From Bacteroidia bacterium (GTDB lineage: Bacteria; Bacteroidota; Bacteroidia; Bacteroidales; Azobacteroidaceae): 19,635 nt of DNA. The translations under genes and the position numbers were made by a program. A model generated the notes under the pieces. That model searched no databases and was not told the DNA's origin. It saw nothing but the letters and a program-made list of their open reading frames with translations. Position 1 is the stretch's first letter. Every line of letters begins with the position of its first letter. Where the stretch lies: the NCBI GenBank assembly GCA_025996895.1, contig BNTW01000052.1, positions 1 to 19,635 on the forward strand. The letters are read 5' to 3'. Positions 3,001 through 5,151 of this stretch are shown in pieces.

Positions 3001-4270
3001 TGTCAATACATTTCAATGAGTCCGGTGTCCATTCCTGTATAACTGTCATGGAAGTTAAATCAGTGGCTACTTGATAAATCTGATTACCGGCAATTAATTC
3101 TAAACGGCTGTCGCCATAAACATCGGCAACAGAGGATACGACTAGGGAGATCTCGTTTGTCTTATTTACATTCAGGTTATAATCCAGACCTATATTTCCG
3201 GATCCTTGACAAAGCAGAACTCCCGTTGCTGCGTTAAATATCTGATTACTTGTATATATTTCTGCATATCCATCATTATTGAAGTCAGTAAAATTAACGG
3301 AAGTATGACAATAATTTATCGAAGTAGAGAGATGGCTAAATGTCCATTGAGCAGATGATGTCCATATAAGTGTTCCATTCATATCATATGCTCTCAAATA
3401 TTCGTCTGCTTCTGCAACTACAATAATTGCTGAATCTACTTCAATCCCTGATGTGTTTTGAATTTTTGTTTTCCCGATAGCAATCACTCCGGGCATATAA
3501 CTTGTATAAGGTTGTGTTGTTATAAAATTAATTCTGGACCTGTCTGTCCCTCTAAAAACAGATATGCGTTGTACGGGATGGCTTAAATCGGTTATCGGAT
3601 TGGGAATACTTTGATTTTCCATATAGCCTGTAACGATTTCGGGTTTCCCGTCGCCGTCCATATCACCCACTAAAGCTGGAGTATAAATACAAACCTCTCC
3701 TAAATTCTGCACTTCTTTCATTGCCCAAACCGTAGGTATGGGTGATACAGCACATACATTATCCAATATATTTCCCGGTTGATCCATTACATTGATTAAC
3801 ACCAACACTGAATCCGGCGAGAATTTACCGTTACATTCGATTTTATATCGCAAACTGTCCTGTCCGACAAAAGAAGCAGAAATTGGTGTATAGATGATTA
3901 TTTTATTTCCAACACCGTCAGCCGAAACAACTGCCGTTCCTCCGGCGCCGGTTATTAATGACGTTTGCAACGCTCCGGTGTTGTCAAACAGTTGAATTGC
4001 AACACTGGTACTGTTGCATGCACCTAATTCGTCATTCCGGAGGACATTCAAATTGACGGAGCCGGAGCTGGGAAGCATGAAAGCATTGTCGGGTACGGCT
4101 TTTAAGGGTAGTTGTGCATACGTGTTTCCGCAGAAAAGCAGGAAAAACAGGAATAGTTTACCCCCCAACCCCCTGAAGGGGGCTTTGAGAGTCTGCGAAT
4201 TTTCAACATTATGCGTCAGCCAAAGTCTCCCCTTCAGGGGAGATTTAGAGGGGTATATCATTGTTTTCAT
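1..4270 (-). CDS. Large secreted FG-GAP/VCBS repeat surface protein, C-terminus beyond left edge
   Basis: At least 1,423 codons are open, and the C-terminus lies outside the window. From the ATG at 4270 the product has an odd 37-residue lead, then a hydrophobic core (residues 39-47, KLFLFFLLFC) and a likely signal-peptidase I site after TYA (residue 52). About seven calcium-loop-like FG-GAP/VCBS motifs follow, such as GDMDGDGKPEI near residue 203, FTDFNNDGYAEI near 330, DVDKDGHLDI near 440, GDIDGDGNVEI near 495, DFNQDGVSEI near 550 and DIDGDSEAEI near 617. These are expected to form a beta-propeller. Next come a CARDB-like segment (VTVYVENQGD, about 720-830), an Ig-like segment and a WTGNSHNNDWHDYNNW stretch typical of large Bacteroidetes secreted proteins. 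Export by type IX secretion is inferred from family context, because the diagnostic C-terminal domain would be off the window. Adhesion or a structural surface role is possible but unproven. The frame is continuous with the gene upstream, so the real start could be 4681. Confidence 0.85.
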   Translation of the reverse strand, partial: MKTMIYPSKSPLKGRLWLTHNVENSQTLKAPFRGLGGKLFLFFLLFCGNTYAQLPLKAVPDNAFMLPSSGSVNLNVLRNDELGACNSTSVAIQLFDNTGALQTSLITGAGGTAVVSADGVGNKIIIYTPISASFVGQDSLRYKIECNGKFSPDSVLVLINVMDQPGNILDNVCAVSPIPTVWAMKEVQNLGEVCIYTPALVGDMDGDGKPEIVTGYMENQSIPNPITDLSHPVQRISVFRGTDRSRINFITTQPYTSYMPGVIAIGKTKIQNTSGIEVDSAIIVVAEADEYLRAYDMNGTLIWTSSAQWTFSHLSTSINYCHTSVNFTDFNNDGYAEIYTSNQIFNAATGVLLCQGSGNIGLDYNLNVNKTNEISLVVSSVADVYGDSRLELIAGNQIYQVATDLTSMTVIQEWTPDSLKCIDNPSETFVLDGWTQVADVDKDGHLDIIVENHTSAQNSFIYIWSPFKGEMLAQKLLPDQCDRLCIPFIGDIDGDGNVEILFITGDSGVASTYYIHAYKYEDGNPLLQLFWKLSHSDGSLNTGLTLFDFNQDGVSEIVYRDENVLRIINGSGIGVNYLGNPCKIDPTTKILTNYELVAPIACMSGTGFEYATIADIDGDSEAEILISGPSSGSVPVNGPLRIFKSNGSPWAYARPVWNQYMYNPVYITDSLTVPAYPLNPATKFVTKDGSFHQPYNNFLQQATLLNDEGKQLRFGPDLAFDKTVGTSISGEGVDYTQSGNDYNVTVYVENQGDAVFPTNVLMPLYISAYIWDTSIPAYVRKFSGTFISPDSIPMGATRSFTFTIPNGYALTGGSEGLIQLRLNELDNLFPMTALQEECVYWNNFFPSGNYGAPDQIACLGETTRINFFPQNSSYSYVWFEDDGTGNKILLNSGTPSDYIDIIKTVAPIDSFFVDVYDNANPDTPVESKYRIDVYLAPDSLIWTGNSHNNDWHDYNNWLDPNDANPTNPQYPQSKIPRPCTHVLIPDGLDYYANLSEDNTTRTIYRDASCDHIHFEFGGEVAQTDRLTYTKAWIQYNFGFYNTEGNDTIAEGFTKGAGAKQPSAMERDQWYALSAPLNKIVTGDFSLGGKPHTWQKRFVRSNVSGTFTGAFDWPDDTIFPNNEAELNEDLGFAIALLVADNNPGYNGEDWSKGYQTGLDTLKGIITLPYFEGPYDESDFDDIVPHTHPHRVHKYDTGSKTSFFKEYWYYVPDVPLTDHPQGSIQRENEAYRFIFDGKMEQIPGGTLAGKNAFKITVPTGKEIMLGNPFMSSFKFNNFYLANSAAIDKYYRLYDGGVFQTYEYNVGGAIMTDTIAVLQAFFITTQASANATVDLYFPFETTSITRETAKAHQDYFKSPKANNDVIYVTATSNANKNKATSATLALNQDGQNVYQLFYEASNNIPQVYFIDENGQKNAVQYSTDNE
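4161..4254. repeat. Bipartite palindromic REP-like element (copy A) inside a coding frame
   Basis: This is a 94-bp unit with G/C-block ends in inverted orientation. The left part on the plus strand is CCCCCCAACCCCCTGAAGGG followed by GGCTTTG. The right part read on the minus strand is CCCCTCTAAATCTCCCCTGA followed by AGGGGAGACTTTG. Each half carries its own small palindrome (CCCCTGAAGGGG), so the unit resembles a REP pair (BIME-like). It is read through in frame and encodes residues 7-37 of the FG-GAP protein as numbered from 4270, immediately before the hydrophobic core of its signal peptide. A related unit lies at 4726-4811. Confidence 0.8.
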
Positions 4271-4681
4271 CTTGAATAATTGTTTTTTAGTGATTAAAAT
4301 GGATAAATACAACATCGAAATTATCAGCAAAAACCAAACTCCGTTTCCCAGCGGAATGGACGAGATGGCCAAGTGGTTGCGATGCCCGTCGTCGGTGGAA
4401 AGACCGGTGCCCAGATAAGAGCTGCCGAAGACATTGGTCAGGAAATCGCCGGAAGGATTGAATGACGAAAATTCTCCAAACGAAAAGAGATTGTCACGAT
4501 AAAACAGATCGGATTGCGACAAAAAATCGTTATCGGATTGTAGAGACGCGGCATGCCGCGTCTCTACATTGTCCCACGTGGTGCTTGCCTCAAAGGGCAG
4601 GCGTTGATTCATTTCCCATTGGGCAAAAGCCTCGGCGGGAAGAAGCAGAAAAAATAATGTCAAAAATTTAATTGTTCGCAT
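4271..4681 (-). CDS. Small secreted protein with C-terminal hydrophobic segment; no stop codon before the next gene
   Basis: The start ATG at 4681 gives 137 codons before the in-frame ATG of the large FG-GAP protein. Residues 1-20 (MRTIKFLTLFFLLLPAEAFA) form a clear signal peptide ending AFA, followed by QW. The middle is polar and Ser/Asn/Asp-rich. The end, PLGNGVWFLLIISMLYLSIL then I-T-K-K, is a single membrane-spanning stretch with a positive tail. I have the impression that small proteins of this architecture, with a PxGNG-like turn before one TM helix, occur next to large secreted proteins in Bacteroidetes, but I cannot name a family. Residues 38-48 are encoded by a perfect 30-bp palindrome. 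No stop codon separates this frame from the next gene. Either the stop was lost by mutation or repeat insertion, the two are now one fused polypeptide, or there is a sequence error. No good promoter is visible upstream, where repeats take up the space. Confidence 0.6.
4539..4568. repeat. Perfect 30-bp palindrome inside the small secreted-protein gene
   Basis: The two 15-base arms (TGTAGAGACGCGGCA and its exact complement) meet without a loop. The sequence type, TGTAGAGACGC...GCGTCTCTACA, resembles short palindromic repeats scattered in several bacterial phyla. Here it is translated in frame as part of VETRHAASLQ. As a single-stranded DNA or RNA it would form a 15-bp hairpin within the reading frame. 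Confidence 0.85.
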
Positions 4682-4691
4682 ACTTTTTTTT

Positions 4692-4719
4692 GAGTTATGA
4701 ATTATGAGTTATGAGTTGA
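4692..4719. repeat. Four degenerate heptanucleotide tandem repeats
   Basis: The units are GAGTTAT, GAATTAT, GAGTTAT and GAGTTGA, ending about 10 bases upstream of the ATG at 4681 of the minus-strand gene. The array is short and imperfect. A change in unit number would alter promoter or leader spacing for that gene, but no such role is shown. Confidence 0.7.
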
Positions 4720-4725
4720 GAATGA

Positions 4726-4811
4726 CCCCACCCCAGCCCTCCCCTGAAGGGGAGGGAGTGGCAGTGCACAATTTTGCAAGGACTTTGCTTCCCCTTTAGG
4801 GGGCTGGGGGG
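4726..4811. repeat. Bipartite palindromic REP-like element (copy B), intergenic
   Basis: The left end reads CCCCACCCCAGCCCTCCCCT then GAAGGGGAGGG, with a stem CCCTCCCC-TGAA-GGGGAGGG at 4737-4756. The right end on the minus strand reads CCCCCCAGCCCCCTAAAGGG then GAAGC. The two ends are imperfect inverted repeats around a central roughly 30-bp non-repetitive stretch. It has the same layout and the same C-run/TGAA/G-run core as the copy at 4161-4254. No transposase is encoded nearby, so any mobility would have to be supplied in trans. Confidence 0.75.
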
Positions 4812-4819
4812 AAACAGGG

Positions 4820-4875
4820 GATTGCGGGTCAAGCCCGCAATGACACAACAATTGCCGCCTTCGCAATGACGGAGG
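4820..4875. repeat. ATTGCGGG/CCCGCAAT-type short interspersed palindromes
   Basis: A hairpin ATTGCGGG (4821-4828), loop TCAAG, CCCGCAAT (4834-4841) is followed by a second, shorter ATTGC...GCAAT arm pair at 4851-4867. Repeats of this kind, often beside AATGAC, are common intergenic clutter in many bacteria. They explain why spurious ORFs appear on both strands here. Confidence 0.6.
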
Positions 4876-5151
4876 CCGGAAATATTGCGTATTAAAAATA
4901 TTTTTTGTATATTACGCGCGTGAGAAAAAAGACGCGTTACAGGCCGTGTAGCGCGTGAATTTTTGTTAAACCGCCAGGTGAGTAATGTGTGTGTGTAACA
5001 AATTTTCAGTAAATAAAACAAATATTTCTACCTGTTTTACAACATAAAAATGTACTTTTTTAGAAATTGTTCGCATCACAAATTGTTACGGAGAGAGAAT
5101 ATAGCAAAGAACGTGCCAAAGTTTAACCTTTTTTTAACGAGGGAAAATATA

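Follow-up and report, generated by a model that had tools for sequence, protein, structure and literature searches.

The locus described here raises the question of why a palindromic repeat of a type usually met between genes lies in frame inside the gene of an FG-GAP protein, and whether it belongs to that protein or was inserted into it. The window is the whole stretch of 19,635 nucleotides that was analysed, taken from contig BNTW01000052.1 of a Bacteroidia bacterium. A sequence-only reading had placed a bipartite palindromic pair at 4161..4254, read through as protein. Both hairpins were found in their places, and the frame across them is open, without a stop. The repeat is 93 bp long, is in frame on the minus strand and consists of two GC-rich hairpins of opposite sense separated by a spacer. 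The coordinates of the element and of its surroundings are collected in Table 1.

Table 1. Features of the palindromic element and its host gene in the window.
Feature	Position	Strand	Details
Host ORF, 1560 residues, cut by contig end	2..4681	-	Opens at ATG 4681
Predicted signal peptide 1 (MRTIKFLTLFFLLLPAEAFA), residues 1-20	4622..4681	-	Hydropathy peak 1.99; helices 2-12 and 14-24 in low-confidence model
Predicted membrane segment GVWFLLIISMLYLSILI, residues 114-130, then TKK	4292..4342	-	Hydropathy peak 2.54; model helix 114-137
Internal Met, residue 138, possible second start	4268..4270	-	Start used in the sequence-only reading
Bipartite palindromic element	4162..4254	-	Residues ~143-173 (YPSKSPLKGRLWLTHNVENSQTLKAPFRGLG) of host ORF
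First hairpin of element	4226..4243		TCTCCCCTTCAGGGGAGA on plus strand
Second hairpin of element	4169..4182		CCCCCTGAAGGGGG on plus strand
Predicted core and cleavage region of signal peptide 2 (KLFLFFLLFCGNTYA), residues 175-189	4115..4159	-	Hydropathy peak 1.81; model helix 172-187
Second bipartite palindrome, same build as element, other spacer	4726..4811		In 5′ leader of host gene
Perfect 30-bp palindrome TGTAGAGACGCGGCATGCCGCGTCTCTACA	4539..4568		In frame in host ORF (VETRHAASL); 1 match, 0 expected

The fold predicted for the minus strand of 4155-4262 had an energy of -46.5 kcal/mol, compared with -30.2 kcal/mol (sd 3.8) for dinucleotide shuffles (z -4.31), and none of 200 shuffles matched it. 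Copies are present in the window's genome (G000; 3.12 Mb, 258 contigs) and in two genomes of the same genus, G002 and G004; together with the fold, this marks the element as a dispersed palindrome with a stable hairpin. The copy numbers given below for these three genomes are lower bounds. On its forward strand, the window's genome contains the pattern CCCCNNNNNGGGG 110 times and the reversed pattern 3 times. By eye, CGTC was seen on the plus strand 8 nt ahead of the first hairpin in the window; it was missing from the paralogues on contigs C15 and C149, and GTAG was seen in the spacer of the G004 query copy. A known structured RNA was rejected as a candidate: the three matches that cmscan found in 4000-5100 were all below threshold (best E 0.092), and none reached the gathering score. 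Matches resembling the palindrome at 4726-4811 precede other genes of the window's genome. The palindrome at 4539-4568 belongs to another family, and its core recurs in other leaders of the host gene family and at two G004 loci.

The host ORF is at least 1560 residues long, since it runs off the contig. It encodes, in order, signal peptide 1, about 90 residues, a membrane segment, Met138, the element, the core of a second signal peptide and an FG-GAP body (PF01839, E 9.5e-17; PF13517, E 2.7e-14). An AlphaFold2 model of residues 1-330, built with 12 sequences, was poor (mean pLDDT 54.3, pTM 0.37); it contained helices at 2-24, 114-137 and 172-187, and the element had neither helix nor strand, at a pLDDT of about 44-57. 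In the cleavage region of signal peptide 2, A189 was invariant and Q190 nearly invariant among 12 sequences. The C-terminal type IX sorting domain (TIGR04183, cut-off 23 bits) was scored in complete relatives, the window ORF itself being cut by the contig end. Homologues P0003 and P0011 reached 27.3 and 24.3 bits, and P0009 from the window's genome was just under the cut-off at 22.0.

This layout bears on the start of the protein. The earlier reading had counted from the internal Met at 4270, which gave residues 7-37 for the element and a long basic n-region for the signal peptide. The numbering is correct from that Met, but the frame opens at 4681 (Table 1). Signal peptide 1 and the membrane segment precede the Met138-type start in the same frame in all 14 family members of the window's genome with a visible junction; what looked like a long n-region is therefore more plausibly a predicted cytosolic hinge ahead of an internal second signal peptide. 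Met138 is not the sole start, and it is not clearly the true one.

A blastn search of G000 with positions 4150-4265 revealed, among the 55 matches listed, at least nine near-full copies (at least 106 of 116 bases, 91-100% identity), the window included. All nine occupy one site in one gene family, in frame. An upstream start is visible in eight of these paralogues, C149 being cut off at a contig edge, and from that start the frame is unbroken in each of the eight. The paralogue on C11 closes early, with TGA after 292 residues. Since nine paralogues share the element at one site, the suggestion that the insertion is recent is doubtful. A protein search of the same genome found 15 leader-type loci, one of which (C32) is cut before the junction. 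The junctions of the other 14 hold the element in nine cases, its right half only in one (KMKTTIHPFRGVGGKL, C105), a different palindrome at the same hinge in two (GGGCGTTGCGCGCAACGCCC, C79 and C24, loci L153 and L154) and nothing in two (C14:7905 and C59), where KK leads directly to a short signal peptide. The genome also contains stand-alone short leader-like genes, with matches of 143-173 aa on C87, C89, C34, C6, C65 and C9 (three examined). In those at L157, L034 and L159 (C34, C87 and C89), the tail after the membrane segment is encoded by a TTGCGGGTCAAGCCCGCAA-type palindrome.

A protein search with residues 1-330 yielded 11 proteins, three from the window's genome (P0001, P0002 and P0009) and eight from other sources. 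None of the eight contains the ~33 residues; they read KKQKLQMKK.. and then the core, as in LLFIKKQKLQMKKTKISLCILFFLTLCGGNSYAQ. On the strength of these eight, the idea of a conserved part of the protein was set aside, and the residues are extra, as had been proposed; we looked for the opposite outcome, relatives that all carry them, and did not find it among the eight. Identity between the outside homologues and the query region is no more than 35-43%, which counts against the explanation that we prefer below, an inserted repeat. The full order of signal peptide, membrane segment and signal peptide is present in one ORF in seven of the eight. The exception, P0004, begins after signal peptide 1 and is also the only one of 21 aligned leaders without three hydrophobic segments. 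A leader search of 58 relatives gave matches in three genomes, two of them through the element peptide alone. The nearest named relatives by ArgS (75-81% identity) are metagenome-assembled genomes assigned to Dysgonamonadaceae bacterium and Candidatus Symbiothrix, and the host is Bacteroidales-like. Symbiothrix lives on termite-gut protists.

The element could also be effectively extragenic if the leader ORF and the FG-GAP ORF were two translation units sharing a frame by chance, the second starting at 4270 or after the element. The junction ahead of Met138 is A-rich, short leader-like genes do stand alone in this genome, and PMC3733652 warns that REPs at the N-terminus of a protein often turn out to be extragenic, the start having been called wrongly. 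However, no stop separates leader and body in any of the 14 members from the window's genome or the eight outside homologues. The differences among the nine paralogues in the leader ORF were 0.171, 0.148 and 0.287 at the first, second and third codon positions. With this third-position excess and no separating stop, ribosomes that start at 4681 should run through the element, and we consider two separate units unlikely.

Next to the reading as a translated insertion, a role of the element as nucleic acid has to be weighed. Mean pairwise identity among the nine paralogues was highest in the element (94.4%) and lower in the leader ORF (80.0%), the core of signal peptide 2 (73.7%) and the body (58.2% and 51.7%); the 5′ leader reached 92.3% and 86.9%. 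Differences in the element by codon position (0.072, 0.030 and 0.065) lacked a third-position excess, and two of its 15 variable sites fell within the 32 hairpin bases. This pattern suggests that what is maintained or homogenised is the DNA of the element, along with the 5′ cassette, and not a stretch of protein; as the 5′ leader is equally conserved, the whole 5′ cassette may have been homogenised. The hairpin might be kept in mRNA or DNA, where it would slow translation or guide recombination of the 5′ cassette among the nine paralogues. The high identity of the element relative to its flanks and the body, its codon-position profile, the low number of variable sites in the hairpins and the strong RNA fold favour such a role. 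The conservation of the 5′ leader (92.3%), on the other hand, means that the pattern agrees with a cassette homogenised as a whole or duplicated recently, and all eight outside homologues and two paralogues of the window's genome manage without the element. We regard retention for a nucleic-acid role as distinctly improbable.

The translated insertion gains from what was found outside this gene family. Genes of the window's genome that have the bipartite element in frame are ArgS, NuoL, ArgC, IorA and an O-antigen-ligase-like ORF; two further ligase-like ORFs contain halves of it, and other copies are intergenic. In G002 and G004, 62 copies over 60 bp (at least 27 and 35, respectively) were examined among the matches listed. 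Seven of them are in frame in recognisable genes, namely a lipoprotein signal peptide (L082), an RsmF-like gene (L101), IorA (L102), a 1058-residue ORF twice, once in its signal peptide (L122), a Mur-ligase (L146) and CarA (L148); those of L082 and L122 are in signal-peptide n-regions. The remaining 55 lie outside recognisable genes, so the element is mainly intergenic in these two genomes. At L081, L127 and L137 the frame is open into the downstream gene before its likely start, and these copies were not counted as coding; L110, matched over 28 bases, was left out of the 62. In-frame insertion in several unrelated protein genes was thus found in the window's genome as well as in congeners. 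A strongly frame-permissive element was tried as a candidate and rejected: the 62 copies had on average 1.69 stop-free frames of six, against 1.43 after shuffling, a weak excess that 1 of 100 shuffles equalled.

Compared with solved carbamoyl-phosphate synthases, CarA of G004 is longer at the element by an insertion of ~22 residues. For ArgS and NuoL the comparison with solved relatives is not decisive, because the loop varies. The ArgS element takes the place of a loop of 18-24 residues and is not a plain addition, which speaks against simple insertion. The ArgS peptide of the window's genome, TPQPPKGG..KSPSGDLG, was found in none of the 80 relatives compared; among their loops, that of L189 contains a fragment resembling it, and those of L186, L233 and L253 are repeat-like in other ways. 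Some of the loci in G002 and G004 have further peculiarities. The minus-strand ORF at L110 (G002:C54:763-4825), with MRIMKIMKIMKEMK..FIIFISFISFIIFISSC, has an element half between ATGAAAATA-type repeats and their reverse complement; one such repeat encodes the basic n-region of a lipoprotein-type signal peptide, and the complement of that repeat encodes the hydrophobic core. In the draft assembly of G004, MurG and a Mur-ligase are in one ORF at L146, joined by repeats reading TLHSSPF, and CarA and CarB are in one ORF at L148.

The loops of three enzymes were aligned across congeners, using all rows that reach the loop, and the classes were judged by eye. In the case of IorA (25 rows), five have the full element, five a fragment or another repeat and 15 none. 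In NuoL (28 rows from 26 genomes), the element is present in five, another repeat in one and nothing in 22. The ArgC loop (27 rows) has the full element once, a half four times, other palindromes twice (G006 and G010, of GCGGGTCAAGCCCGC type in opposite senses) and none in 20 rows. Two partial NuoL rows (G005 and G013) stayed out of the alignments, as did two second fragments from G010 and G014. The element in IorA of G027 and G061 has the sense opposite to that in G000, G002 and G004; this points to at least two events or to an inversion. At the DNA level, bases are replaced in the loops and a clear target duplication was not seen.

An assembly artefact or a chance GC-rich palindrome is extremely improbable: all genomes used are multi-contig drafts in which repeats are often close to contig ends, yet the nine copies are spread over separate contigs, the gene bodies there have diverged, and other genomes contain the same type of element.

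These results lead us to conclude that the element is probably an inserted, mobile-type 93-bp palindrome; its predicted translation is a hinge of 31 residues that joins a membrane segment to a likely second signal peptide. The frame is open, nine copies are at one site, the residues are missing in homologues, and copies are in frame in unrelated enzymes. An inserted repeat whose translation the cell tolerates is the likely account because the outside homologues lack the element and the repeat is also in frame in unrelated enzyme genes of this genome. Besides the low identity of the outside homologues and the replaced ArgS loop, the position of most G002 and G004 copies outside recognisable genes, the poor structure model and the failure to tie a mobilising enzyme to the element weigh against it.

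Palindromes within coding sequence are already known. PMC3767692 and PMC10969869 describe the Rickettsia palindromic elements (RPEs) as palindromes of about 100-150 bp, in frame in many Rickettsia ORFs, exposed, and with different groups at the same loci. The likeness to RPEs noted earlier holds, since unrelated housekeeping genes of the window's genome and of congeners carry this element type in frame; as with the Rickettsia and Wolbachia elements, the same loci are taken by different repeats among relatives. Differences are the phylum and the size, 93 bp and bipartite versus about 100-150 bp, and the likeness is one of behaviour. In the way it works the element is RPE-like, in Bacteroidales, and it is not placed among the RPEs themselves.

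REP hairpins are described in PMC3733652 as short, GC-rich, arranged in inverted pairs, mostly intergenic, sometimes in ORFs and present in several phyla; REP-like repeats inside genes are therefore in print for other phyla, a point on which the sequence-only reading is not supported. The element resembles REP/BIME dimers, including the intragenic GTAG/CGTC REPs, in its short GC-rich hairpins in inverted pairs. Unlike REPs with a RAYT, its tag tetranucleotide is inconsistent between copies. The Y1_Tnp profile gave no match in G000 (17 of 38 genus genomes were positive), and a RAYT-driven REP in the window's genome was set aside on that ground. Within the stretches examined, no element copy over 60 bp was near Y1_Tnp at five loci of G002 and G004 (L108, L111, L112, L149 and L150). 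No mobilising enzyme tied to the element was found.

According to PMC10969869, MITEs are short non-autonomous repeats that can form in-frame fusions and so add residues to a host ORF. The element is similar as a short repeat adding residues to an ORF; terminal inverted repeats of the MITE type (15-30 bp) with target duplication were not recognised in the loop alignments. The Bradyrhizobium FbcH cytochrome b/c1 precursor is one ORF that gives two products by way of an internal signal peptide. In the host family, too, one ORF would give two exported products, here by prediction and with the element in the hinge before the internal signal peptide.

We infer the insertion mechanism, translation, topology and processing as follows. 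The element and the other palindromes would spread by some mechanism; as with RPEs, a copy would survive as part of the protein if it fell into a tolerant loop or hinge, probably an exposed one, and kept the frame. Family duplication, perhaps with gene conversion of the 5′ cassette, may have multiplied one insertion to nine. In the product, signal peptide 1 would be cut, and the membrane segment would leave its lysine-rich end and the element in the cytosol. There, the element would be just a longer n-region of signal peptide 2; we propose that it is tolerated on account of this position, in a cytosolic hinge with the membrane segment on one side and the internal signal peptide on the other. 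Cleavage after AYA/Q would release the FG-GAP body, for which the sorting domain of complete relatives suggests the type IX route.

The one-ORF layout of the host family with two predicted signal peptides is a separate oddity. Palindromes that encode protein had been described as peculiar to Rickettsia and Wolbachia, apart from intragenic REPs scattered elsewhere. None was found for Bacteroidales in the literature searched, of which subscription journals and preprints mostly formed no part. We give about even chances to a wider reading, in which several unrelated palindrome families are routinely translated in this genus of Bacteroidales symbionts, and the loops of IorA, NuoL, ArgC and ArgS and the internal-signal-peptide hinge are recurrent landing pads where one palindrome replaces another. 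If this is true, repeats would continually supply new hinge, loop and n-region sequence, in the manner of RPEs, with several families acting at once and independently evolved.
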